Program-made: the position numbers and the translations under genes
Source: Archangium lipolyticum
GTDB taxonomy: Bacteria; Myxococcota; Myxococcia; Myxococcales; Myxococcaceae
DNA length: 64,000 nt
Assembly (NCBI RefSeq): GCF_024623785.1
Contig: NZ_JANKBZ010000030.1
Span: 1-64,000, forward strand
Direction of reading: 5' to 3'
Notes under the pieces: model-generated
The model's input: only the letters and a program-made list of their open reading frames with translations
Databases searched by the model: none
What the model was told of the DNA's origin: nothing
Shown here: piece by piece, positions 49,763-64,000 of the stretch
Layout: each line of letters opens with the position of its first letter
Numbering within the stretch: position 1 is the first letter of the stretch

Positions 49763-52700
49763 TTAGCCGAAGAGACCGCCGCCCTTCTTGGGGGGCGGAT
49801 TCTTCTTGCGCATCTCGATGAGGCGCAGCTCCTGGTTGGCCTCGAGGTGCTTGGGGTTGGCGCGCACCGCCTCGCGGAAGTGACGCTCGGCGCGGAGCAT
49901 GTCGCCCTCGACGCGCGAGATCACCCCGAGCTGGTAGTGGGCCCGATCACAGTTGGGATCCCGCTTGAGCGCCTCGGCCATCATCTGCTTCGCCTTGGGG
50001 ATGTCGGCCTTGCGCTGGGGGTCCATGTAGATGGCCCACGCGCGAGCGGCGAGGTACACGGCCTTGGGCTCGACGTTGTAGGCGCGCTCGAAGTGGTCGG
50101 CCGCGGACGCGAAGTCCCGCTTGCGGAAGAAGACCTCTCCCATCTTGAAGAGATCGCTGGCTTCCCCGCCACCAGCGGGCTTCGCCGCCTGCGCCGAGGC
50201 CATGGAGCGCAGCTCCTGGAGGTAGGCCGCGCGCTTCGTGTCGTCGTAGAGGACCTCGTAGGCACCGCGGATGGAGTCGAAGACGGCGGTCATCTTGGGC
50301 GCCAGGGAGGAGAGCGCCGGAGGCAGACGATCCGGGTGGAAGCGCTTGGCGAGCCCGAGGAACGCGGTCTTCACCTGCTCGCGCTTCACATCCGGACCGA
50401 TGGGGAGGCCGAGCATCGTGAAGTGGTCGCGATGGGCCTGCACGTCGGCGTAGCGCTTCTCGATCTGCTGGGCGAGCAGCTGCTCGTCACTGAGCGGAGC
50501 CGGCGCACCGGGAGCCGGCGCACCGGGAGCTGGCGGAGCGGCCGCGGGGCGGGACCCGATCTCCATGGCACGCTGGAGCAGGCGCTGGCGGCGGACCTTC
50601 GCCGCCTCGTCGGACACATCCTCCGCCAGGTCGTTCTCATCGAGGGACAGGTCGTCCCACGAATCGGGCATGTCGAAGTCGACCGTCGGAACCGAGGAGG
50701 CCGTGGTGACGGCCGGAGGCGGCATGGGCGCGGCGGGGGCCGGGGGCGCGGCGGGCGCCGGAGACACCGGAGGCTGGGGAGCGGGCTCGATGGGAGCCGG
50801 GGACTGGGGGACCTCCGCGCGGACGAGCGATTCCAGGTGGGCATCGACCTGCTGCAGCGCGGCCTCGAACGAGGCGTTGATGTCGCCAGGGGCCTCACCA
50901 CCGGCGTTGTCGAAGGTGACGATGCGCCAGAGGTCCTCGTCACCCGAGGAGCGAGGTGCATCCGGCCCCAGCCGGAGCGGCTGAGCGGGAGCAGCGGGCG
51001 CACTGTTGCGAGCCCAGAGGTTGGGGGGAACGGAGCCCGCGGGGGCGGCCGTGTTGGCGGCGGGAGAACGCAGGCCCGGGGGAACGGGAGCGGCCGGAGC
51101 CTGCGTGCTGGCGGCGGGGGAACGAAGCCCCGGGGGAACGGCGGCCCGAGGCGGTGCCGCGGGCGGTGGCGGGCGCGCGGCCGGAGGCGGCATCGCGGGC
51201 GCCATGACGACGGGCGCGGGCACGACAGGGGCGGGCGGCTGGGACTCGGGGCCCGAGAGATCCGCCCAGAAGTTCAGATCGGCACCTGACTCGTTCGCCG
51301 ATTCCTGGGGAGCGGAAGCCGCGGGCATGGCAGGCGCGATGGGTCGAGCGGGCTCGTCGACGAGCCATGACTCTGGAGGAGCGGACCCGGCGCGCCGCTG
51401 GGCCTCCTGCATGTCCCGGAGCGACGCGGCATTGGCCTGCTCGCGCGCCAGACGGAGCGCGTTCGTGTCCTCCTGCGCGGGCAACTCCGCGTCACCCGGG
51501 AACGCGTCGAACCACGCCTCGGGGGTGGACATGACTTCGGAGAGGGAGTTCTCGGCTCCGGTAACGGGCTGTGTGCTCGCCTCGGCGGGAGCGGAGCCGA
51601 GGATCAATTCTCCGTCCTGCAGTTCGGCCGCCTCGGCGATGCGAGCCACGTCCGACAACTGGGAGACCTCGGCGAGACGCCGCTGCTCGATGAGGCGTGA
51701 CGCCTCTACGCGGCGAGCCTCTTCCGCGAGGCGCGCGGCCTCGGCCCTGCGAGCCTCTTCGGCATGTCGAGCCGCTTCCGCACGGCGGCGCTCCTCGGCG
51801 AGACGAGCTGCCTCGGCCCGACGAACCTCTTCCGCGCGGCGAGCCTCTTCGGCCAGCCGGGCTTCCTCGGCGACCCGAGCCTCTTCCGCCAGCCGCGCCT
51901 CTTCCGCCAGCCGCGCCTCTTCCGCCAGCCGCGCCTCTTCCGCCAGCCGCGCCTCTTCCGCCAGCCGCGCCTCTTCCGCCAGCCGCGCCTCTTCCACCAG
52001 CCGCGCCTCTTCCGCCAGCCGCGCCTCTTCCGCCAGCCGCGCCTCTTCCGCCAGTCGCGCCGCCTCGGCCCGTCGAGCCTCCTCCTCGGCTCGGAGCCGG
52101 GCCTCCTCCGCCAGCCGCGCCGCTTCCGCACGGCGACGCTCCTCAGCGAGACGAGCTGCCTCGGCCCGACGAGCCTCTTCCACGCGGCGAGCCTCTTCCA
52201 CGCGGCGAGCCTCTTCGGCCAGCCGGGCCTCCTCGGCGAGACGCGCCTCTTCCGCAAGACGCGCCTCCTCCTCAGCTCGGAGCCGGGCCTCCTCGGCCAG
52301 TCGCGCCTCTTCGGCCAAGCGGGCTTCCTCGGCCAGTCGCGCCTCCTCTTCGGCACGGAGCCGGGCCTCCTCCGCCAGCCGCGATTCCTCAGCGAGACGC
52401 GCCTCCTCCTCGGCTCGGAGCCGGGCCTCCTCGGCGAGACGTGCCTCCTCCTCGGCTCGGAGCCGGGCCTCCTCGGCGAGACGTGCCTCTTCGGCCAGCC
52501 GCGCTTCCTCAGCGAGACGCGCCTCCTCCTCGGCTCGAAGCCGGGCCTCCTCCGCTAGCTGTGCCTCTTCGGCCAGCCGCGCATCCTCGGCGAGTCGCGC
52601 CTCCTCCTCGGCTCGGAGCCGCACCTCCTCCGCCAGCCGCGCCTCTTCCGCGCGACGGGCTTCCTCGACCTGTCGGGCTTCTTCCTCGGCTCGGAGCCGC

Positions 52701-54589
52701 GCCTCCTCGGCGAGTCGCGCCTCCTCGGCGAGTCGCGCCTCCTCTTCAGCGGCAAGACGCGCCTCTTCCGCGCGACGGGCCTCCTCGGCCAACCGCGCTT
52801 CCTCCTCGGCTCGGAGTCGAGCCTCCTCGGCCAGCCGCGCCTCTTCCGCGCGACGGGCCTCCTCCACCAGCCGCGCCTCCTCGGCCAACCGAATCTCTTC
52901 AGCCAGCCGGGCCGCCTCCTCCTCGGCACGACGAGCCTCTTCGGCGAGGCGGGCCTCTTCGGCCAGTCGCGCCTCTTCCGCACGGCGTGCCTCTTCCGCA
53001 CGGCGTGCTTCTTCCGCACGGCGTGCTTCTTCTTCCGCAGCTCGACGCGCCTCCTCGGCCAACCGAGCCTCTTCCTCGGCAGCCCGACGCGCTTCTTCCT
53101 CGGCGAGCCGTGCCTCTTCGGCGAGTCTGGCTTCCTCAGCACGGCGGGCCTCTTCGGCTAGCCGTGCCTCCTCCGCCAGCCGTTCCTCTTCGGCACGTCG
53201 GGCCTCCTCCGCCAGGCGTGCTTCCTCCTCCGCACGGAGCCGGGCCTCTTCGGCCAGTCGCGCCTCTTCGGCCAGTCGCGCCTCTTCGGCCAACCGAGCC
53301 TCTTCGGCCAACCGAGCCTCTTCAGCGAGTCTGGCTTCTTCCGCGAGGCGAGCCTCCTCGGCCAGCCGCGCCTCTTCCGCGCGGCGTGCCTCTTCTTCCG
53401 CACGGAGCCTGGCCTCCTCGGCCAGCCGCGCCTCTTCCGCGCGGCGTGCCTCTTCTTCCGCACGGAGCCTGGCCTCTTCGGCCAGTCGCGCCTCTTCCGC
53501 GCGGCGAGCCTCCTCGGCCAACCGGGCCTCTTCGGCCAGCCGCGCCTCCTCGGCCAGCCGCGCCTCCTCGGCCAACCGCGCCTCTTCTTCCGCGCGGCGC
53601 CGGGCCTCTTCCGCGCGGCGAGCCTCCTCGGCCAACCGCGCCTCTTCCTCGGCAGCCCGACGCGCTTCTTCCTCGGCGAGCCGTGCCTCTTCGGCGAGTC
53701 TGGCTTCTTCCGCGAGGCGAGCCTCCTCAGCCAACCGCGCCTCTTCCGCCAGTCGTGCCTCTTCCGCCAGTCGTGCCTCTTCCGCCAGCCGCGCCTCTTC
53801 CGCCAGCCGCGCCTCTTCCGCCAGCCGCGCCTCTTCCGCCAGCCGCGCCTCTTCTTCCGCGCGGCGCCGGGCCTCTTCGGCCAACCGGGCTTCCTCGGCG
53901 CGCCGGGCCTCTTCTTCCGCCTGTCGCCGGGCCTCCTCCTCGCGCCGGTCCCGCTCGCGGGCCTCCCACGCCTCGATGGACAGCGACTCGACGAGCCCCT
54001 CACGCTCGAGAACGTGGAACAGCACTTCCTGGGCGGGCGTCAGCCCCTCCAACCGTTGGAAGTCCGCCAGCCTCAGGAGCAGCGCCATCTCCTCCGCACT
54101 GGCCACCCACGGGGTGCACGCCCCCGCGTTCTCACAGCGGTACATGCGAGGCTCGGGGGCCTCGGCGCCCGCGGGCTCCAGGGCGGCACGGACGACGCGC
54201 GTCCCCGCGATGGGGCGGAACATCTCCTCCACCCCTCCCTCCTCGAAGGCGGCGCGCTCGGCGAGCTGACTCAGCCGCCGCACCTCGGCGAGCACCTGGT
54301 GCTCGGCCACCGCCTCCGGCGCCAGCCCGAGCTCCTCCAACAGGTCCTCATCGGGAGTCCCCGCGCTCTCACGGGCCCACAGCGCATCCAGCATCTCGGG
54401 GCGGATGCGCCCGGCCTGAAGCAGAGCCTGCACGGGCGTCTGGTACCCGAAGCCGAGCTGCGTCCCCACCAGGTCTCCGGATTGGAGGAAGAGGAGCGCC
54501 TGGCGCCCTCCGGCGTGCAGCGTGAGCCGGCCGGTGGCACGGGACTTGTGGGCGGAGTACAGCGTTTCGGCGACCTGCGAGGGGGGCAT
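49763..54589 (-). CDS. Very large hexad-repeat (AEEARL) protein with PATAN-like N terminus, J domain and TPRs
   Basis: 1608 residues from ATG 54589. Residues 1-200 resemble a DUF4388/PATAN start ([20 protein letters not shown]). Residues about 210-963 are nearly pure six-residue repeats of [12 protein letters not shown] type, rich in Glu and Arg with hexad rather than heptad spacing. This is characteristic of a single stable alpha-helix (ER/K type), not a coiled coil. Then come about 350 residues of Pro/Ala linker and a J domain ([20 protein letters not shown]) with HPD at 1418-1420. Three or so TPRs end the protein ([20 protein letters not shown]), with [11 protein letters not shown] at the tail. 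The J domain should recruit a DnaK-type Hsp70. No signal peptide. Confidence 0.88.
51700..53960 (-). repeat. Long degenerate 18-nt tandem repeat coding for the AEEARL hexads
   Basis: About 2.26 kb of imperfect 18-nt units (plus-strand core GCCTCTTCCGCCAGCCGC) with scattered 3-nt insertions (an extra Glu, giving AEEEAR). There are local runs of identical units, for example 51885-52050 and 53750-53850. Because units contain no stop in most frames, several frames on both strands stay open here. Confidence 0.95.
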
Positions 54590-55144: not shown

Positions 55145-55501
55145 ATGCGCCTGAGGGTGAACAATGTGACACGAGACCGCCTGCTGGCGGACCGCGCGGA
55201 GCGGGCCACGTCGTTCGTGGAGCGCTTCGTGGGGTTGATGGGCCGGAGGTCGCTGGCCTTCGGGGAGGGGCTGCACATCGTACCCTGCAACTCCATCCAC
55301 ACCTTCTTCATGCGCATTCCCATCGACGTGGCCTTCCTCGACCCGGAGGGGACGATCGTCAAGCAATTCGTGGCCCTGCCGCCCTGGCGGGCGACCTCGA
55401 TGTACTTCCAGGCGAAGTCGGTGCTGGAGCTGCCCGCCGGGACGCTCCAGGCGAGCGGCACCCAGGAAGGGGACCGGCTTGCATTCGAAGCTGTCCCTTG
55501 A
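55145..55501 (+). CDS. DUF192 family protein
   Basis: 118 residues from ATG 55145. DUF192 proteins are small beta-barrel-like proteins, often periplasmic; here no signal peptide is seen. Hallmarks: RFVGLMGRRSLAFGEGLHIV, CNSIHTFFMRIPIDVAFLD and KSVLELPAGT. The conserved motif around the IHTFFM segment is intact. Divergent from trmL with an 18-nt gap between start codons, so the two promoters must overlap the coding sequences. Function unknown. Confidence 0.92.
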   Translation: MRLRVNNVTRDRLLADRAERATSFVERFVGLMGRRSLAFGEGLHIVPCNSIHTFFMRIPIDVAFLDPEGTIVKQFVALPPWRATSMYFQAKSVLELPAGTLQASGTQEGDRLAFEAVP

Positions 55502-55625
55502 CCCCCCCATGGCCGTAAAGAGGCCAACCTTCCGGGCTCCTGGGGTTTTGACCCCTTTCGCGACGCTTTGTTAACCTGCCCCTCTCGTCCAAGGGACATC
55601 CTGGACACGTTGGAGACTCCGCAGC

Positions 55626-56390
55626 ATGCGCATCGAGGTTGCTGGCACCACCCACGTCGGGATGAAGCGGAACCACAATGAGGACAACTACCTCATTCTG
55701 TCCGACGAGAACCTGTGCTGTGTCGCCGACGGAATGGGCGGCCATTCGTCCGGGGAGATTGCCTCGAAGATCGCCGTGGACGAGCTGGCCGAGTTCTTCC
55801 GGATGACGGCGCGCGACCAGGACGTGACCTGGCCGTTCAAGATGGACAAGGCGCGCAACTACGACGAGAACCGGCTGGCCACGGGCATCAAGCTGGCCAA
55901 CAAGAGCATCTACGAGAAGGCGTGTACGGACACGAAGTACAAGGGCATGGGGACGACGATCGTCTCGCTGCACTTCATCAACGACACGGCGTACGTGGGG
56001 CACGTGGGTGACAGCCGGGTGTACTTCTTCAGGCAGGGCGTGCTGAAGCAGGTGACGGAGGACCACTCGCTGCTCAACGACTACCTCAAGGCGAAGAAGC
56101 TCTCGCCGGAGGAGATCGAGAACTTCCCGCACAAGAACGTCATCGTCCGGGCACTGGGGATGAAGGAGACGGTGCAGGTGGACGTGGCGAAGGTGGAGCC
56201 GCAGGAAGGGGACGTGTTCCTGCTGTGCTCGGACGGGCTGTCGGGCATGGTGACGGACCCGCAGATGCAGGAGATCCTGGCGCGCACGATGGAGCTGGAC
56301 AAGGCGTGCTCGCAGCTGATCGACCTGGCGAACGCGGCGGGCGGCAACGACAACGTCACCTGCGTGCTGGCGCGCTACCACGCCAACTGA
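55626..56390 (+). CDS. PP2C-type (PPM) Ser/Thr protein phosphatase
   Basis: 254 residues from ATG 55626. Metal-binding aspartates are visible in RNHNEDNYLI, VADGMGGHSSGEIAS and LCSDGLSGMVTD, and the final GGNDNVTCVLAR. TAYVGHVGDSRVYFF is also typical. It is a soluble stand-alone phosphatase and the natural antagonist of the Hanks kinases in this window. M. xanthus has a PP2C phosphatase (Pph1) of similar size; whether this is its ortholog I cannot tell. The gene is followed by a REP-like element. Confidence 0.95.
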   Translation: MRIEVAGTTHVGMKRNHNEDNYLILSDENLCCVADGMGGHSSGEIASKIAVDELAEFFRMTARDQDVTWPFKMDKARNYDENRLATGIKLANKSIYEKACTDTKYKGMGTTIVSLHFINDTAYVGHVGDSRVYFFRQGVLKQVTEDHSLLNDYLKAKKLSPEEIENFPHKNVIVRALGMKETVQVDVAKVEPQEGDVFLLCSDGLSGMVTDPQMQEILARTMELDKACSQLIDLANAAGGNDNVTCVLARYHAN

Positions 56391-56416
56391 GAACTACCGC
56401 CGTGAGGTGACCCGGG

Positions 56417-56482
56417 TCTGCCCCTCTCCCTTTGGGAGAGGGACGGGGTGAGGGTATTGGACCCAAGAGGGTTCCTCACGTT
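56417..56482. repeat. REP-like element, copy C (half unit)
   Basis: After the PP2C stop: CCCCTCTCCCTTTGGGAGAG then GGACGGGGTGAGGGTA and TTGGACCCAAGAGGGTTCCTC. It matches one half of copies A and B. It opens the 400-base gap (56391-56790) whose other content is the left 66-bp palindrome unit. Confidence 0.75.
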
Positions 56483-56515
56483 CGCAGGCCCATCGACCAA
56501 GACAGGGCCACGATT

Positions 56516-56581
56516 TGATGTAGTTGACTACATCGAACGTAGGCTTTCATGCCACACAAAATGTAGTCGACTACATCGAAT
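56516..56581. repeat. Left 66-bp paired-palindrome unit
   Basis: Two palindromes: GATGTAGTTGACTACATC (56517-56534, arms of 8 bp perfect) and ATGTAGTCGACTACAT (56561-56576, perfect). Their centres are 43 bp apart. A close copy in the same orientation lies at 63067-63132, about 55 of 66 positions identical by hand alignment. It lies 210 bases upstream of the gene at 56791. Confidence 0.9.
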
Positions 56582-56790
56582 CGTCTCATGACAGGCGCTG
56601 TTCATCTCGCCTGCTGGACGGTCCCGTCTCTCACGTGGATGTCTCTCGCGCGAGCCCGATTCACAACCTCTTGAAACGAATGCTGTCTGTCTTTGGTCCG
56701 CCGAGTGCACTGCGACTGTTGGCCGCAATGCAGTTCCAGCGGTGGAAACACAGACACAACCACACTCTTGGATTCAAGAGGGGGACAGCA

Positions 56791-57486
56791 ATGAACAAGA
56801 CGATGACGACCGTTGGCATTGACCTGACGCTCGATCAAATCCGCGACACCCTGAATGCGCTGGCGAAGCAGGGCAGCACCAGCGCACACCAGATCGGTAC
56901 GCTCTACAACCACGTCATGGACAAGCGGATGGCCGAGTCCGCCGGGTACAGGAGCGCGCAGGAGTACTTCAGCCAACACGTGAAGGCCATTTCGAAGGCC
57001 ACGATGAGCAACTACGGCACCGTGGCCCGCAGCTTCACGGAGGCCATCTGCACGCAGTACGGCATGAGCAACCTGCGGGAGCTCCTCCGCTACGTGGAGG
57101 TGACCAACACGCTGCTGCCGGCGGACCCGGGCGCCCTGAGCATCGACGTGCCGCAGGATGACGGCAAGGTGGTGGCGAAGCCCTTCTCCGACTGCAGCGT
57201 GGACGAGCTGGAGCGGGCCACGCGCGCCAAGCGGAACCCGCCCCCGGTGCGGGTGCCCGTGGCGGACCAGGCGCGTCTGCTCTTCTTCGCTGACAGCATC
57301 ACCCGCAGCTTCGAGGGCGTGGCCGACGTGCGCTTCAGCTCGCGCAGCAAGGGCGGCAAGACGCTCGTCAGCCTGCAGGACGTGCCGATGACGGAGGTGG
57401 AGCGCCTCATCCAGGCGCTCCAGGACGGAATGAACGCCGAGCCTACCCTGGCGGCGGAGCAAGCAACACCGCTCCCACTGACGTGA
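56791..57486 (+). CDS. Conserved-looking protein of unknown function, possible DNA-binding
   Basis: 231 residues from ATG 56791, with GAGGGGG about 5 nt upstream; the frame continues upstream but has no good start signal. The N-terminal 130 residues are helical: DLTLDQIRDTLNALAKQGST, HVMDKRMAESAGYRSAQEYF and ISKATMSNYGTVARSF, which could include a helix-turn-helix. The C-terminal part is beta-containing (EGVADVRFSSRSKGGKTLVS). No family I can name. It is the first gene after the left paired-palindrome unit, which suggests it may bind or be regulated by that site. Confidence 0.8.
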   Translation: MNKTMTTVGIDLTLDQIRDTLNALAKQGSTSAHQIGTLYNHVMDKRMAESAGYRSAQEYFSQHVKAISKATMSNYGTVARSFTEAICTQYGMSNLRELLRYVEVTNTLLPADPGALSIDVPQDDGKVVAKPFSDCSVDELERATRAKRNPPPVRVPVADQARLLFFADSITRSFEGVADVRFSSRSKGGKTLVSLQDVPMTEVERLIQALQDGMNAEPTLAAEQATPLPLT

Positions 57487-57687
57487 GGTGAGCGCGGGGA
57501 GGGGGGCGCCGTGCCCCATCTGGACGGGGCACGGCGGACTCTTACAGCGAAGAGACCACCCCTGAGCATCGTTGACGAGCCGCTCATCATCGGCCGGAAC
57601 GGCTGCTCGGCTTGAGCTGGAACGAGTGCTCACCTTGGCTGGAATACGCAGTCGCGGATTCACAACCTTTGCGGTAGACCCGTGTGC

Positions 57688-58059
57688 ATGGACGAAAAGC
57701 TGCAACGGCTCATGGGGGCGGCGGCCCGGGCCGCCCGGCTGCGGTTGGGTCTCACGCAGGCGGAAGTGGCTGCCAAGGTGGGCCTGCGCTCGAGCGTCTA
57801 CGGCCGGGTGGAACGCGGCCACATGACGCCCAGCGTGCCCACGTTGCGGCGCTTGTGTGAGACGCTCGGCATCTCCTCGGACGCGCTGCTGTCCCTGGCT
57901 CCCCGTGAACCGGCACAAGCATCTGGCACTGCCGCGCGCACGGATGGTGAGCACCCGGAGCTGAGCCGTATCATCCACCTGCTGAGTGGCTGGACCCCGG
58001 AGAGGTTGGTGCTGCTGCGCAAGCTGTTGGAGACGGCCGACTCCCACCTCACGACGTGA
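57688..58059 (+). CDS. XRE-family helix-turn-helix regulator
   Basis: 123 residues from ATG 57688 (GTG 57682 possible). The HTH is RLGLTQAEVAAKVGLRSSVY followed by VERGHMTPSVPTLRRLC, a standard HTH_XRE (Cro/C1) domain at residues about 15-70. The C-terminal 50 residues end in LSGWTPERLVLLRKLLETA, a short helical effector or dimer region. It converges with a second XRE gene, overlapping by 11 nt at the stops. The two share the HTH pattern, so they look like paralogues. Confidence 0.88.
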   Translation: MDEKLQRLMGAAARAARLRLGLTQAEVAAKVGLRSSVYGRVERGHMTPSVPTLRRLCETLGISSDALLSLAPREPAQASGTAARTDGEHPELSRIIHLLSGWTPERLVLLRKLLETADSHLTT

Positions 58060-58510
58060 ACGGTCGGGACTCGCGCCCCTCTTCGCCAGCGGAGGGCTGG
58101 CTCCCGGAAGGGAGCTTCTCCAGGGCGAGCACCAGGTTGTGGACCACGGCGAGCCGCGGCTCGTCCAGGTGACGCAGGTGGCGCAGCAGCCGGCGCATCA
58201 GGGGAGGGTTCTCCTGAGTGGGCGCGGCGTCCGCCAACCAGGCCGCCATGTCATGGCCAGCCAGATCGAGGGCGTGGTTCGCATCCAGCCGGAGGATCCC
58301 GCACAGCCGCCGCAGGGTGGGCACGCTGGGAAGCATCAGCCCGCGCTCCGTCCGCCCGTACACCTCAGTGGCGATGCCCACACGCTCGGCCACGTCTGCC
58401 TGGGTCAGGCCCCTGGCCCGCCGGGCCTCGCTCAGCACCTCCCCCAAGTGGACGAGAAGCCGCGTCCTCTCCACTGTCTCCTTCGCCTCGTGTCTCTTTG
58501 GGGTCGTCAT
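58049..58510 (-). CDS. XRE-family helix-turn-helix regulator, paralogue of the preceding gene
   Basis: 153 residues from ATG 58510. HTH: RARGLTQADVAERVGIATEV then TERGLMLPSVPTLRRLC, residues about 30-85. The C terminus carries LMRRLLRHLRHLDEPRLAVV, comparable with the partner's C-terminal helix. It starts 8 nt after the pseudokinase stop, so the two form an operon. Similar layout to the plus-strand XRE indicates gene duplication with inversion. Confidence 0.88.
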   Translation of the reverse strand: MTTPKRHEAKETVERTRLLVHLGEVLSEARRARGLTQADVAERVGIATEVYGRTERGLMLPSVPTLRRLCGILRLDANHALDLAGHDMAAWLADAAPTQENPPLMRRLLRHLRHLDEPRLAVVHNLVLALEKLPSGSQPSAGEEGRESRPFTS

Positions 58511-58518
58511 GGTGGCCG

Positions 58519-59679
58519 CTAGTGCAGGGGCTTCTTCTTCCAACCCGCCATCTCCTCCGGTGTGGGCACGACGCCCTTTTCGGAGGGAAATGCGAGTGTC
58601 TCGTCGGGGGAGGGGTTCTTGCGCAGAATGGACGCCAGCTCCGTCGCCGCCTCGGAGGGCCCGAAGGGACCGTCCAGGCGCAGGTACGCTCTCAGGTCAT
58701 CGCGCAGCTCGGCGCCCGTCTGATAGCGGTCCTCCGGTCTGGCGCGTAGCGCCTTGTGGAGGATGCGCTTGAGCTGCCCCGGAACCCCCTGGGCCATACG
58801 CTCCACGTCCTCCGGGCCGAAGCGCAGGATGCGGTCGGCCAGTGCCCCCACGCTGGCCCAGCTGGTGCGCTCGGTGCGTACGTGGGCGTTGTAGCGAGCC
58901 ACCTCCAGGGACTCATCCGGGGGCAGAGCCACGTCCGGCGGGTCCAACGGGTACTGGCCCGAGAGCATCTCCAGCAGCACCATGCCCAGGGAGTAGAGGT
59001 CCGCCCGCCCATCCGGCGGCTGAAAGCGCACCACCTCCGGGGCGGCGTAGGCGACGTCCGCCCGCAGCACGCGGGGAGCGGTGTGGACGCGTCCGGTCAT
59101 CCGCGACCAGGCCACACCGAAGTCGGTGAGTTTGACCTGCCCCTTGCGGCTCAGCCGGATTGCCATGGGACTGACGGCCCGGTGAACGACGTGCAGTGAC
59201 TGGCCGTCCTCACCCTCGAGGCTCCAGGCGTAATGGAGTGCATCGGCCACGGCGGCGGCGATGTAACAGGCGAAGGCCGGGGACAGCGGGTGGCCCAGTC
59301 GCTCGAGCGAGGTGCTCTCCGCCGTGTCGAGGAAGCAGCCCGGCATGAATTCCGTCACCAGGAAGGGTCGGCCCTGGTGCTCCTCCAACCCGTGGACCCG
59401 GGCGATGTGGGGGTGGCGCAGGTGCACGGCGAGCCGCGCCTCCTCCAAGGCCCGCTGACGCCGCTCCGACCGGGGTGGCATCACCACGTGCCGCAGGAGG
59501 ACGGTGCGGGCGGGGCCGCTCCCCGTCAGCGGCTTTCGCCGGGCAAGCACCAGCGGGCTGTAGTCCACGTGGTTCAGCAGCCGACGCAGAAACTCGTAAC
59601 GGTACTCGGGACCCTCGAAGAGCAGGGAGCCAGGGCTCGGGACGCGGAGGGTGGAGTCTGAGCTGGGCGGCGTATTCAT
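58519..59679 (-). CDS. Hanks-type pseudokinase (catalytic residues lost)
   Basis: 386 residues from ATG 59679. The kinase fold is clear: EEARLAVHLRHPHIARVHGL, FLVTEFMPG, LTDFGVAWSR (DFG 186-188), AYAAPEVVRF and DLYSLGMVLLEMLSG. But the usual HRDLKPxN reads HRAVSPMA, so the catalytic Asp is Ala168 and the metal-binding Asn is Ala173. The ATP-binding Lys is Arg63 (TVLLRHVV), and no glycine loop is visible. It should be inactive in phosphotransfer and act as a scaffold or allosteric partner. No transmembrane segment, unlike the kinase at 60972. It is followed at 8 nt by an XRE gene. Confidence 0.9.
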   Translation of the reverse strand: MNTPPSSDSTLRVPSPGSLLFEGPEYRYEFLRRLLNHVDYSPLVLARRKPLTGSGPARTVLLRHVVMPPRSERRQRALEEARLAVHLRHPHIARVHGLEEHQGRPFLVTEFMPGCFLDTAESTSLERLGHPLSPAFACYIAAAVADALHYAWSLEGEDGQSLHVVHRAVSPMAIRLSRKGQVKLTDFGVAWSRMTGRVHTAPRVLRADVAYAAPEVVRFQPPDGRADLYSLGMVLLEMLSGQYPLDPPDVALPPDESLEVARYNAHVRTERTSWASVGALADRILRFGPEDVERMAQGVPGQLKRILHKALRARPEDRYQTGAELRDDLRAYLRLDGPFGPSEAATELASILRKNPSPDETLAFPSEKGVVPTPEEMAGWKKKPLH

Positions 59680-59890
59680 GGCTCACTCCCGAGAAGGGGG
59701 CTACCGGGCGGAGATGTTGGGGACATGTCCAGCCTTGAAATCCCCATGTACCCGGAAAGGTATCCTGACAAAAACCAAGGCCCCATTCAGGTAACACGAT
59801 GGGGTGCGGAATGGAAGTCCCGGCTGACCGTCCAGGTTGGCGTGCGGATTCAACCTCTCAGAACAGAACAACTCCTGGAGTCAGGCAGAG

Positions 59891-59920
59891 CCGTCACGCC
59901 CACGCCGTGACGTGTGACGG
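59891..59920 (-). terminator. Hairpin after the DUF2381 gene
   Basis: CCGTCAC at 59891-59897 pairs with GTGACGG at 59914-59920, immediately after the DUF2381 stop on the minus strand. There is no T run, so the call is weak. Confidence 0.3.
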
Positions 59921-59921
59921 C

Positions 59922-60863
59922 CTACGGGAAGGTCACACCATCGAAGAGCTCGATCCGGGCTGCGTCTTCCTGGCCCCACATCTCGAGGGTGAAGGCGCCC
60001 CGTGCCTCGCTCTCCGGCGCCTCCACCTCCACCACGACCTGGCGCATCAGCCCCGGCGGAATGGACTCCCCTGGCCAGACGTTGAGCGCCTTCCATTTCG
60101 TGCGCCTGAATCCCACCAGCGCAGCACCAGCGGGCGTCCAGGGCCTCTTACCGGTATTTATCAATGCCTGCGCCACGGCGAGCCGCACCACGCCGGTTTT
60201 CTCGCCCTCGCGGTAGGTGTCGGAGCGGTAGCTGCTCGCGTGCATGCTGGTGACGGTGTTGCCCGAACGTGAAGTGACTTCGTGACCGAGGTCCTTATAG
60301 GCGACGCCCCCTTTGCCCATGCGCTCCTGGGCGATGAGGCCCGTGAGCCCCACCTGCCCGCTGCACTCGGCCTGGAGGCGTGCCTTGTCCTCCCGGCACT
60401 GTTGAGATTCCGCCCGCGCCTGCTGCTCGCCCTGCCGGTAGGAGGCCAACGTCCGCGGGTGGCGCGTCACCTCCACCTGCCGTTCGGCCTCGGAGGGATG
60501 CACCACCAGTTGGAAGGTGACGCTCGCCGGGGCCGCGCCGTCCTGGAAGTGGACTGTCACCGGCACGCGCTCCCCATCGTGAAGCGATTCCGAGGGAACG
60601 AGCGTGAGGCCGAAGTCCCCCTCTATCACCCGGAACCGCTCCCGCGCGGCCAGTTCCACACGTGCCAGCTTCGAGTCGAAGAACAGGTTGGTGGACAGCT
60701 GCGGGTGGATGCACACCTCCGAGGGGATGTCAGGAGCATCCGCTTCCAGTTCGATGTGACGGGTGCCCGTCTCGCAGGTGGGGAATGGGGTCCGCTCGGC
60801 GGCACCAGCGGGTGCGGCGAGCAAGACGAGACCCAGGAGGGCGGCGGAGGACGGGGCGAACAC
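59922..60863 (-). CDS. Secreted DUF2381 (TIGR02268-like) protein
   Basis: 313 residues from GTG 60863, with GGAGG about 10 nt upstream; this gives a signal peptide (AALLGLVLLAAPAGAA). Further upstream the frame is open but not domain-like. The protein has the layout of the DUF2381 family, a myxobacterial paralogous family: a beta N-terminal part (CETGTRHIELEADAPDIPSE), a helical middle with coiled-coil features (ARAESQQCREDKARLQAECSG), and a C-terminal beta domain (KALNVWPGESIPPGLMRQVV, ARIELFDGV). These genes commonly sit next to kinases. Here it follows the kinase gene by 108 nt, same strand. Role unknown; probably periplasmic or surface ligand or substrate of the kinase's external part. 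Confidence 0.82.
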   Translation of the reverse strand: MFAPSSAALLGLVLLAAPAGAAERTPFPTCETGTRHIELEADAPDIPSEVCIHPQLSTNLFFDSKLARVELAARERFRVIEGDFGLTLVPSESLHDGERVPVTVHFQDGAAPASVTFQLVVHPSEAERQVEVTRHPRTLASYRQGEQQARAESQQCREDKARLQAECSGQVGLTGLIAQERMGKGGVAYKDLGHEVTSRSGNTVTSMHASSYRSDTYREGEKTGVVRLAVAQALINTGKRPWTPAGAALVGFRRTKWKALNVWPGESIPPGLMRQVVVEVEAPESEARGAFTLEMWGQEDAARIELFDGVTFP

Positions 60864-60971
60864 AGGGCAGGAACCTCCAGGGACGTGGATGAGACCGCAA
60901 AAGTGGGCCTCTACCACACTTCCCACCCGGTAGTGCATGGCAGCTCGCTCGGGACAGCGGCCCCGCCAACT

Positions 60972-62939
60972 CTATTCTTCGAAGTGGTCCACGACCTGCA
61001 CGGCCGCAACAGGAGCGACCACCATGTTCTCAGGCGTGCTGCCGGGGTCGAAGGGCAAGCCAGGCCCGCCTTGCCATTCGTACAGTCGTATGCAGACCTT
61101 GTACGTCTCTCCAGTAGGCGTGCGAGCCTCGGTGAAGAGGCCGTACACGCGCTTCTCCCCGAGGTAGAGCCGCCCGTAGAGGACGGTCTTGTGGGGCAGC
61201 TTCTCCCCCAAGGCACCGCCCAATCGGAGCGGGGTATCCTCACGCACGGAAACGGCTCTGCCCCGCACATCGGACCAGTCGGCGACGTGGACCTGGCCGA
61301 TGCGCAGGCCGAGCGTGCGGGTCATGGTCTCCACGGCCCCGGCGGGGCACTCCAGGCGTGGAGGCTCCCGGCGCACCGGTGGCACCTGCTGCTGCGCACT
61401 GAGACAGGCCTGCAGGGCGGCTCCCGTGAGGCCCAGGCACGCGTTGCGCGCGGCGGCCCCCGCGCTCCTGGACTGTGTTTCCCGCTGGGGGCTGTTCGTC
61501 TTCTGCCGCTGCTGCTTCTTCACGGGGGCTGTGTCCTTTCCGGACGCCGCGGGCGAAGCGGCGGCCGCGGGGGTCGACTCCACCAGTGGAGCCGCGGCTC
61601 CGTCAGCTTCCGGCCGCTTCCAAGGGGGCGCCACTTCGCCGCCAGACCCGGCCATCCAGGAGGGGACCTCCCAGGGAAACCCTACAGGTGGGCGGAACGC
61701 AGGCCCCGGCAGGCCGGGAGGCGTGATGGGTGGCGCGGGAGGCGCTGGACTCAGGCGCCGCATGAGCTCCTCCACCCCCAGGCCCGCCAGCAGCAACACG
61801 CCCAGCAGCACGGCCGCCTTCAGCGAGGACGCCAGCACATCCATCCAGCGAACGGCGGCCAGGGGCCAGAGCATGCCCGGAGCGGACACCGTCACCGGAG
61901 TGGCCGGCGGGAGGACGAGCTCCGGGCGCTTGCCCCGCCGAGGCTTCTCCCCTACCCATCTGCGCATCCAGGGCACGAGCGACTTGTCCACCAGTTCCGG
62001 CTCCTGCTCGGTGCTGGCCCCGTTCGCGTCCCAGCCGTAGCACAGCGGCACGTCCCAACTCGCATCCCCTCTCGCTTCCTTCAGCGCCGCCTCCAGGGCC
62101 TCGGCCAGAACCCCGGCGGTGCGCGGGCGCGCCTCCGGCTCCTTCTCCAGCAGCCGCATGCAGAGGGCGCTGAGCGCTCGCGGCACCCGGCCGTTCATCT
62201 CGTGCGGCTCCGTGGGTCTGCGCGAGACAATCTCCCCCAACATCACCTGGTCATCCCCATCAATGGGGTAGCTGGCGGTGAGCAGTGCGTAGAAGATGAC
62301 GCCCAGCGCATACAGTTCGTCCGCTGGCGAGTAGAGGTAGCATTCCTCCGGCCTTCGCTCCTGGCTGAGGAAGAAGGCAACGGACTCGGGGCTGCGAAAG
62401 CGCAGGTCGCCCGGAGCCAGGACGCCGCGCGTGACGCGCGGGGCGCCGGACATGGCTCCTGCGCCAAAGTCCACCAGCACCGGCTCCCCGTCCCCCTGAC
62501 GCACCAGCACGTTGTCGTCCTTGAGGTCGCGGTGCAGCACCCCGGCGGCGTGCACCTTGTCGAGCACGCGGGCCAGCGTCAGCATCTTGCCGGCGATGTC
62601 CCGAGCGCACGGATTCTCCTCCTGGGCCCACTGGCTCAGGGTACGGCCCGGCACGTACTCCATGACGAGCACCAGGTACTCGGTTGCTTCCTCTGGCCAC
62701 TGAAAGTGGCTCAGCAGCCTCACCACGTTGGGCCAGTGGTGACGCATGAGGATGAGCAGTTCGCGCCAGCCCCATTCCCCCACGCGCTCCAGGTGGATGA
62801 ACTTGAGCGCGAAGAGGCGCCCATCCCGCCGCGCCAGGTACACCTTGCCGAAGCCCCCACTGCCCAACTTGCTGTCGATGCGGTACCCGCCCACCAGCGC
62901 GCCAGGTCGTACCACTTCCTTCCCGGGTCCGGACCTCAC
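60972..62939 (-). CDS. Transmembrane Ser/Thr protein kinase with intact catalytic motifs
   Basis: 655 residues from GTG 62939, chosen for an excellent GGAGGAG; a TTG at 63065 lies inside the palindrome repeat and is unlikely. Kinase motifs: GSGGFG (26-31), Lys46 in FALKFI, HRDLKDDN (136-143), DFG (157-159). One transmembrane helix (LKAAVLLGVLLLAGLGV) divides it from an outer part that contains the Pro-rich stretch, NACLGLTGAALQACLSAQQQ, and a C-terminal beta domain (VLYGRLYLGEKRVYGLFTEA). It is the first gene on the right of the cassette, about 130 bases from the right paired-palindrome unit, and is followed by DUF2381. Confidence 0.92.
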   Translation of the reverse strand: MRSGPGKEVVRPGALVGGYRIDSKLGSGGFGKVYLARRDGRLFALKFIHLERVGEWGWRELLILMRHHWPNVVRLLSHFQWPEEATEYLVLVMEYVPGRTLSQWAQEENPCARDIAGKMLTLARVLDKVHAAGVLHRDLKDDNVLVRQGDGEPVLVDFGAGAMSGAPRVTRGVLAPGDLRFRSPESVAFFLSQERRPEECYLYSPADELYALGVIFYALLTASYPIDGDDQVMLGEIVSRRPTEPHEMNGRVPRALSALCMRLLEKEPEARPRTAGVLAEALEAALKEARGDASWDVPLCYGWDANGASTEQEPELVDKSLVPWMRRWVGEKPRRGKRPELVLPPATPVTVSAPGMLWPLAAVRWMDVLASSLKAAVLLGVLLLAGLGVEELMRRLSPAPPAPPITPPGLPGPAFRPPVGFPWEVPSWMAGSGGEVAPPWKRPEADGAAAPLVESTPAAAASPAASGKDTAPVKKQQRQKTNSPQRETQSRSAGAAARNACLGLTGAALQACLSAQQQVPPVRREPPRLECPAGAVETMTRTLGLRIGQVHVADWSDVRGRAVSVREDTPLRLGGALGEKLPHKTVLYGRLYLGEKRVYGLFTEARTPTGETYKVCIRLYEWQGGPGLPFDPGSTPENMVVAPVAAVQVVDHFEE

Positions 62940-63066
62940 GAGGCTCCTCCAGCGACGGCGGCGGGCAGTAACGAAAGAAGTCCGGTCATGGCGTTGAACC
63001 TCCGGAGTGGGGAGGCTAACAGACCGGAGTCCACGGCTCGGCGAGATGGGTGCCCAGCAGGCCAAT

Positions 63067-63132
63067 TGATGTAGTCGACCACATCAAATGTAGGTTTCAA
63101 TACCACACTCGATGTAGTCGACTACATCGAAT
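63067..63132. repeat. Right 66-bp paired-palindrome unit
   Basis: GATGTAGTCGACCACATC (63068-63085, one arm mismatch) and GATGTAGTCGACTACATC (63111-63128, perfect 18-bp palindrome), centres 43 bp apart. Direct copy of the unit at 56516-56581 with the same spacer words GTAGG and CCACAC. It sits in the 304-base gap 62940-63243, in which I see no gene; the rest of that gap is unremarkable. Confidence 0.9.
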
Positions 63133-63243
63133 CCCCATGTCCTCGGCCACGAGGCCGAGGCACTCACGGGTACCGGCTGGGAATGCAGGTACCCAAGGGT
63201 GCGTGCTCAGCAGAAGCCTCGCTCTCGTAGAGGCCTGGGAGTG

Positions 63244-64000
63244 CTACGCGTTGAGCGGAGCGGGCACGCGATGTGCCCCCCAGGCCACCACGTCGACCAG
63301 CTCCTCGCCGGGAGCGATCTCTGTCCCCTCGAGCACGGCGCAGCGCTCCAACCGGGCCCCCGCGCCCACCCGGACCTGAGCGCCCACGTACACCGAAGCG
63401 CCCACGCGGACCCCATCGGCCAGGGAGCAACCCGCGTCGAAGTAGGCCGGGCCCGTCACCTGGGCGCCGCCCACCTGGGCCGAAGCATGAGCCCAGTAAT
63501 TCCCCTGCGCACGAGGAGCCGGGGCGAACGGTGAATCCGCCCCGAGCCCCTCCAGCGGCACCTGTCCGGACAACACATCCCGCACGGTCGCCAGGTAGCG
63601 CGAGGGCATGCCCAGGTCAGACCAGTACGCGCGCACCACCTCACCGCGCACGGTGAGGCCCGCCTCCATCATCCGCACGTAGACGTCGCGGTTGATGTCC
63701 TCGGGGCCCTCGGGAGTCATGAAGTCGAAGGCGCGCGGCGAGATGACGTGCACGCCGGTGAAGTGCCAGGGAGTGAGCCCCTCGCCTCCAGGCCCGAACC
63801 TGGCGATCCGGCGCACGCTCTGCCGCGAGTCCATCTCCACGGCGGCGTACTTCTCGCTCTCGGGCATGGGCATCAACACCATGGTGGCCGCCGCGCCCGA
63901 GGCCCGGTGCGCGGCCACCACGGGCCGCAGGTCCACCGGGAAGAGGATGTCGCCGTTGAAGACGATGAAGTCATCCCCCGAGAGGAAGTCCCGCAGGCCG
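63244..64000 (-). CDS. Nucleotidyltransferase of the sugar-nucleotide type (partial, 5' end beyond window)
   Basis: About 252 residues visible; the N-terminal glycine-rich nucleotide loop lies beyond the right edge. Visible parts: FIVFNGDILFP (metal-binding Asp), VLMPMPESEKYAAVEMD, WHFTGVHVISPRAFDFM and DINRDVYVRMMEAG, which fit the NTP_transferase fold of mannose-1-phosphate guanylyltransferases or glucose-1-phosphate thymidylyltransferases. The C-terminal 80 residues form a left-handed beta-helix (hexapeptide repeats: VGASVYVGAQVRVGAGARLE). The sugar and nucleotide cannot be decided. It converges with nothing in the window; the last neighbour is the cassette. Confidence 0.8.
   Translation of the reverse strand, partial: GLRDFLSGDDFIVFNGDILFPVDLRPVVAAHRASGAAATMVLMPMPESEKYAAVEMDSRQSVRRIARFGPGGEGLTPWHFTGVHVISPRAFDFMTPEGPEDINRDVYVRMMEAGLTVRGEVVRAYWSDLGMPSRYLATVRDVLSGQVPLEGLGADSPFAPAPRAQGNYWAHASAQVGGAQVTGPAYFDAGCSLADGVRVGASVYVGAQVRVGAGARLERCAVLEGTEIAPGEELVDVVAWGAHRVPAPLNA

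Follow-up and report, generated by a model that had tools for sequence, protein, structure and literature searches.

A putative ParB relative and candidate private binding sites at a presence/absence kinase module of Archangium lipolyticum

What is the role of two similar palindromic repeats that enclose a small set of kinase and regulator genes? The question is raised by a 64,000-nucleotide stretch of Archangium lipolyticum DNA (assembly GCF_024623785.1, contig NZ_JANKBZ010000030.1, positions 1 to 64,000; hereafter "the window", from genome G000), in which two 68-bp "units" and six genes make up most of a 6.75-kb module that is absent from some related genomes. We infer that these units, with a third copy elsewhere in the genome, are probably binding sites of a protein encoded within the module, UNK, through which it would control its own gene, the kinase operon and a third operon for a peptide. 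The features on which this reading rests are:

56492-63243, no strand: presence/absence module, absent in G003; G004 lacks a wider stretch, 56392-63245
56515-56582, plus strand: unit 1, 5' of the UNK gene; two palindromes, centres 43 bp apart
56517-56534 (one mismatched pair) and 56561-56576 (perfect), plus strand: unit 1 palindromes
56694-56709, plus strand: sigma54-type -24/-12 promoter before UNK, TGGTCCG-N4-GTGCA, score 9.4 of 11.6
56791-57486, plus strand: UNK, 231 amino acids (aa); no significant Pfam, NCBIfam or PDB sequence family
63066-63133, plus strand: unit 2, 5' of the kinase operon; two palindromes, centres 43 bp apart
63068-63085 (one mismatched pair) and 63109-63130 (perfect), plus strand: unit 2 palindromes
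G000 contig C17, 163633-163698 (locus L042, 9934-9999): unit 3, 66 bp, 77% alike, from the ATGTAGTCGACTACAT pattern search

Units 1 and 2 are direct repeats on the same strand, with 57 of 68 bases equal (84% identity over 68 nt), each made of two palindromes (16-22 bp, core ATGTAGTCGACTACAT) and a spacer mostly common to both. The same-orientation pair described in an earlier, sequence-only reading of this DNA is thus real, and it is rare: the next-best same-strand match to unit 1 within the window reaches 34/68, and the units contribute two of the window's eight perfect palindromes of at least 16 bp. Across G000 (12.6 Mb, 75 contigs), ATGTAGTCGACTACAT with up to two mismatches occurs six times, always paired inside a unit (two units on contig C30, one on C17), while the reversed pattern gave 0 matches. 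No unit was found by blastn in 58 other genomes, and no RNA element by Rfam at gathering score in window positions 55500-64000. Unit 1 lies 208 bp from the UNK gene, unit 2 76 bp from a 17-codon leader open reading frame (ORF), and unit 3 67 bp 5' of a minus-strand operon encoding a VKOR/C39/thioredoxin protein, a RimK-type ATP-grasp protein and a 60-aa peptide, so that all three units occupy operon 5' gaps. We agree with the earlier suggestion that their palindromic content points to operators. The 60-aa peptide has a double-glycine-like leader (as read by eye) and a C39 ABC transporter gene lies nearby; operon and transporter are possibly a ribosomally synthesized and post-translationally modified peptide cluster.

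Is the module then a discrete inherited block, and do the units mark its ends? In the closest relative compared (G003, 95.8% identical across the left flank), 12 bp replace window positions 56492-63243, and in G004 4 bp replace 56392-63245, whereas G001, G002 and G005 carry other sequence at the site (1.9, 3.2 and 2.2 kb), with no blastn match to the module. The junction is thus bare in 2/5 congeneric genomes and occupied by other genes in 3/5, and together with comparable palindrome-flanked sets at two places in G005 this bears out the discrete inherited module that had been proposed. Attachment or excision at the units themselves, also proposed, finds no such backing. Relative to G003 the borders lie beyond the units, by 23 bp at unit 1 and by 110 bp at unit 2, no target duplication is seen there, and a domain search found no recombinase domain in the six module proteins. 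A unit search in related genomes had been suggested as a check on mobility; by blastn (58 genomes) it found no unit at the empty sites of the two congeners above, and none of the five congeners has a unit left at this position. An integrative element with att sites would be expected to leave a single-unit empty site and to carry a recombinase, neither of which was found for the module. Given the bare sites and the borders outside the units, the module has been gained or lost as a block, the units being near but not exact ends. More generally, the gap between the PP2C and NTP-transferase genes (about window positions 56391-63243; L198-L202) is a hotspot of gene turnover: two species are bare there and three others hold different inserts.

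The earlier reading held that no gene in the module explains the units. This is not borne out, since UNK heads a family whose members mostly carry palindromes of their own upstream. A mixed search detected UNK relatives in 10/59 genomes, and a profile search in 17/96 genomes of the host's family (5/26 genera), with 1-22 matches per positive genome, fragments counted; one scan gave loci in Archangium lansinium, A. violaceum, an Archangium metagenome-assembled genome and Hyalangium versicolor. UNK had no significant Pfam, NCBIfam, PHROGs or PDB sequence family, and no description of such a family was found in open-licence PubMed Central (PMC) literature, including excerpts of PMC12704722, a survey on the ParB-CTPase fold. 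UNK most likely heads an unnamed, undescribed family. A plasmid or viral origin of UNK was considered and dropped, no relative being found in a plasmid collection or among viral contigs. The family set comprises 74 ORFs in 72 loci, taken from stop to stop, with genes in the relatives called by our own script. Relatives in genus g23 (L160-L166) have ~90-180 extra residues, apparently C-terminal.

For the palindrome and promoter counts 71 of these 74 members were kept, the others being dropped for a match starting after profile position 20 or for too little upstream DNA (L153 was kept in the palindrome count despite the position rule). A palindrome of score at least 8 was present within 420 bp upstream of 47/71 members, vs. 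35/410 other genes (controls that include loci of arrays away from UNK) and 5/71 downstream sides. With a control cleaned of UNK upstream regions and of these array loci, the figures were 44/69 members (69 of the 74 used) vs. 10/181, and 29/69 vs. 3/181 for at least two like palindromes. The palindromes often form arrays of regular spacing: 41 bp in L047 (six copies), L054 and L059 (four each), L052 and L056 (three each), and L048 and L145 (two each), 50-51 bp in L160 and L164, and 48-49 bp in L162. Among the 44/74 members with a usable palindrome, the mean 9-bp half-site difference rose from 0.43 at protein identities of at least 85% (7 pairs) to 1.10 at 70-85% (21 pairs) and 3.50 at 55-70% (84 pairs); the classes below had 5.41, 5.21 and 5.58 (Mantel test of palindrome vs. 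UNK protein divergence, 0/2000 permutations). The palindrome sequence diverges together with the UNK protein.

A second upstream feature suggests another candidate for the protein that binds these sites. A sigma54-type match of score at least 8.5 lies within 170 bp upstream of 69/71 UNK members, vs. 113/419 other genes and 285/1480 shuffles (median scores 10.4 for the family and 7.9 for the control, which includes operon-internal genes and is lowered by them). With such promoters almost throughout and the palindromes at enhancer distance, the palindromes might serve as enhancers for a sigma54 activator whose gene lies elsewhere, and UNK would be no more than a target gene. We consider this quite unlikely. 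Every paralog has private palindromes that diverge along with its UNK protein and would thus need an activator of its own, and no protein with a GAFTGA motif was marked among the genes listed at UNK loci. A GTCCGCG-like element near -145 of the G084 and G086 paralogs, noticed by eye, is moreover a better candidate for a common activator's site. In these two genomes, a second palindrome, of the type CGTCCGCG..CGCGGACG, stands near -145 to -199 upstream of L169, L177-L180 and L183; paralogs share it, and it may be where a common sigma54 activator binds.

If UNK is the binder, what kind of protein is it? An AlphaFold2 model built from 62 sequences, the second of two (mean predicted local distance difference test, pLDDT, 90.6), begins with a helical, helix-turn-helix (HTH)-like part, followed by two strands and, at the C-terminus, a helix-strand-strand-helix; the predicted layout places the HTH region at about residues 26-150 and the C-terminal element at 157-215. 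For the first model (pLDDT 84.3), the top three structural matches were ParB chains (Z 6.6-7.5, root-mean-square deviation (rmsd) 3.0-3.5, 97-99 residues). A profile comparison (hhalign) of UNK with the DNA-binding and C-terminal domains of ParB, into which 19/30 ParB proteins of the relatives entered, scored 35.6 and was colinear over 153 columns, vs. 14.1 for the reversed profile, at most 20.0 for 59 column shuffles and at most 28.4 for 60 block shuffles. An N-terminal CTPase domain is absent, UNK having 231 aa and the models showing only helices before the HTH region. These comparisons moderately support UNK as a ParB relative that would be reduced to DNA-binding and C-terminal dimerisation domains, without the CTPase. 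Pfam gave no ParB family among the matches of 18 UNK members, and no KGGxGKT motif, as of a neighbouring parA, was found in 292 called genes of 19 UNK loci. Neither model had an integrase or transposase among the structural matches listed, and a viral fold search gave nothing at E 0.001. The top Foldseek match, TIGR-Tas (TasH), was dropped (E 0.05, TM 0.15, rmsd 17).

Among known systems, the closest architecture to the UNK model is that of ParT from Streptomyces plasmid SCP2, a ParB-like protein with a middle HTH and a C-terminal dimerisation domain but no CTPase, which loads at an 18-bp parS and has homologs reported mainly in Actinomycetota and Cyanobacteriota (PMC12260392). No sequence kinship with UNK was detectable for 11 ParT proteins (hhalign 16.6, shuffles up to 22.8), although the comparison of ParB with ParT fails likewise. 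ParT adjoins ParA (PMC12260392), whereas UNK has no KGGxGKT neighbour and, unlike ParT, is multi-copy and stands behind sigma54-type promoters. A ParB-type protein acting as a transcription regulator at operators, as proposed here for UNK, is known from KorB/KorA of RK2, but KorB is a CTPase clamp and UNK has no room for that domain (PMC11790492). Closer in host, ParB of the Myxococcus fulvus plasmid pMF1 binds repeated sites, next to its own genes as well as at other places, and is self-repressing (PMC3235114). It was rejected as a counterpart, being much smaller than UNK (86 aa by the annotated gene); it is plasmid-borne with ParA, and UNK has no relative in the plasmid collection. Finally, REPINs, like the units, are palindromic, often doublet repeats tied to one gene with copies elsewhere, but their RAYT is a tyrosine transposase (PMC3116915), a domain lacking in UNK (none in 18 members, Pfam and NCBIfam, E up to 1), and G000 has very few unit copies.

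We thus propose the following organization. UNK would be transcribed from the sigma54-type promoter, with the palindrome sites ~110 bp upstream, and a UNK dimer would bind each parS-like palindrome of a unit. Through unit 1 it would control its own gene (that it represses this gene is a guess), through unit 2 the operon for kinase, DUF2381 protein, pseudokinase and XRE regulator, and through unit 3 the distant peptide-modification operon. UNK would come and go between myxobacterial genomes with a kinase operon that carries the same sites, and related modules would use different private sites because the palindromes change together with the UNK protein.

How does this fit the other loci? Palindromes flanking UNK resemble each other in the window and in L046, L051, L053 and L055, but their spelling differs between the window, L046, L051/L053 and L055, the orthologous L051 and L053 being alike. 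G005 has two places with UNK, kinase and DUF2381 between like palindromes, as partly decayed sets. At L055 (palindrome CACTCGTTGACGTCAACGAGTG) these comprise a pseudokinase fragment, XRE ORFs, a kinase whose called frame begins at the HRD motif, DUF2381 and a UNK fragment; L053 (palindrome CACTTCTACGTACGTGGAAGTG) has DUF2381 and kinase fragments with UNK and adjoins a tRNA-Cys gene. Its G002 counterpart, L051, has the same tRNA-Cys and the same palindrome but for one base; here, as at L046, the UNK gene is flanked by like palindromes and no kinase is present. In other subfamilies, most UNK loci have palindromes at just one flank within 20 kb.

Palindromes also occur away from any UNK gene, with many in G001, G002, G003 and G005. 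In favour of a tie between such sites and UNK, a CACTT-type pattern gave 26 hits in G001 (control 10), 17 each in G002 (4), G003 (6) and G005 (2) and 9 in G008 (2), and 0 in G004 (1), which has no UNK gene. Solo arrays in Archangium relatives (L078-L096; e.g., L082 8485-8757, L085 8889-8956) are spaced 41 bp. Those in the lexA gap are present in G001, G002 and G005, those in the sbcD gap also in G003, and neither in G000 or G004; their spelling varies by species. At 9/17 palindrome loci away from UNK (4 distinct sites), one array end is followed after 10-27 bp by a YACTTTT motif, vs. 7/5000 random positions.

Such arrays could mean that the units are the terminal or subterminal ends of a mobile module, which UNK would handle with a host or lost recombinase, the solo arrays being non-autonomous derivatives, as REPINs are to RAYTs. 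Bare sites, the gain and loss of module, UNK genes and solo arrays, patchy copy numbers (the 1-22 matches above), the several loci where UNK has like palindromes to its left and right, the occurrence of comparable sets in more than one place, and the YACTTTT motif, as if one end were defined, are all consistent with it. Still, UNK and the module match no recombinase or transposase family, the module borders fall outside the units, the bare sites hold no unit, no target duplication is seen, most UNK loci of the other subfamilies have the palindromes at one flank (within 20 kb), and G000 has three units in all, so that we regard this explanation as unlikely. The long self-complementary repeats might also be RNA or cruciform hairpins (terminators or REP-like) rather than protein sites, for 7/17 array loci without a UNK gene are flanked by convergent genes and others come directly after a stop codon. 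This seems very improbable given the position of the arrays upstream of UNK (between divergent genes in L044, L050, L052, L054 and L056), the lack of an Rfam match in the window stretch and a divergence correlated with the protein.

Several points nevertheless weigh against UNK as a regulator at its own palindromes. A transposon plus its ends would likewise show matched private sites, and a sigma54 activator could bind the palindromes instead of UNK. Co-divergence is not in itself proof of binding, since common descent of the gene and its upstream DNA contributes, and 24/71 members have no upstream palindrome of score at least 8. The best sigma54 matches toward the kinase and VKOR genes (8.7 and 8.5 in 260 bp) are at chance level. 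G000 and G018 have UNK genes without a CACTT-type excess (4 vs. control 3, and 4 vs. 5), their palindromes being spelled differently from that type. Because of their position, promoter control makes no sense at the seven array loci between convergent genes, three of which are the same lexA site; it is above all the arrays away from UNK that a simple operator reading fails to explain. As for ParB kinship, P1 ParB is the sole ParB among 50 matches listed for the second model (Z 4.2-4.3), Foldseek gave no match for the UNK models at E 0.001, the hhalign probability was only 50%, and full-length ParB aligned in the C-terminal domain only (E 0.057, probability 1%).

The remaining module genes are as the sequence-only reading had described the six:

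57682-58059, plus strand: XRE-family HTH regulator 1 (domain search)
58049-58543, minus strand: XRE-family HTH regulator 2; ATG start at 58510 in our own gene calling
58519-59679, minus strand: pseudokinase, HRA replacing HRD
59922-60938, minus strand: DUF2381 protein (domain search)
60972-62939, minus strand: Ser/Thr kinase with HRD and DFG motifs, GTG start, first gene of the minus-strand operon
62936-62989, minus strand: 17-codon leader ORF with a GGAGG ribosome site; its stop overlaps the kinase GTG start (GTGA)

The two XRE genes are convergent and overlap, the second closing the minus-strand operon behind unit 2 (kinase, DUF2381, pseudokinase, XRE), and the overlap of leader ORF and kinase possibly couples their translation. 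A reading as a defence system was set aside as not specific, the kinases matching PADLOC kinase models and the XREs generic HTH models, with none for UNK or DUF2381. Nearness of kinase or DUF2381 genes was likewise rejected as a signal: 3/15 UNK loci in G000-G005 have DUF2381 within 10 kb, vs. ~1.3 expected by chance, and UNK-DUF2381 proximity alone is not significant because DUF2381 is common (53, 64, 29, 53, 31 and 67 matches in G000 to G005). It is the matched palindromes, not gene proximity counts, that tie the UNK-kinase-DUF2381 sets together. Elsewhere in the window, 49763-54589 (minus strand) encodes a 1608-aa protein, mostly repeats, with a C-terminal part that by eye is J-domain-like.

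Beyond this locus, it is tempting to speculate, though we hold it somewhat doubtful, that myxobacteria harbour a rapidly diversifying ParB family without CTPase, whose members have private, mutually insulated site sets, spread between genomes, take up cargo operons (the kinase module, for one) and seed palindrome arrays in other places. If so, nature would offer, in up to ~20 paralogs per genome with matched sites of different spelling, a library of orthogonal ParB-like DNA binders that lack a nucleotide switch, and the system would show co-divergence of such proteins and their sites. For myxobacterial kinase operons, UNK provides a concrete candidate regulator.

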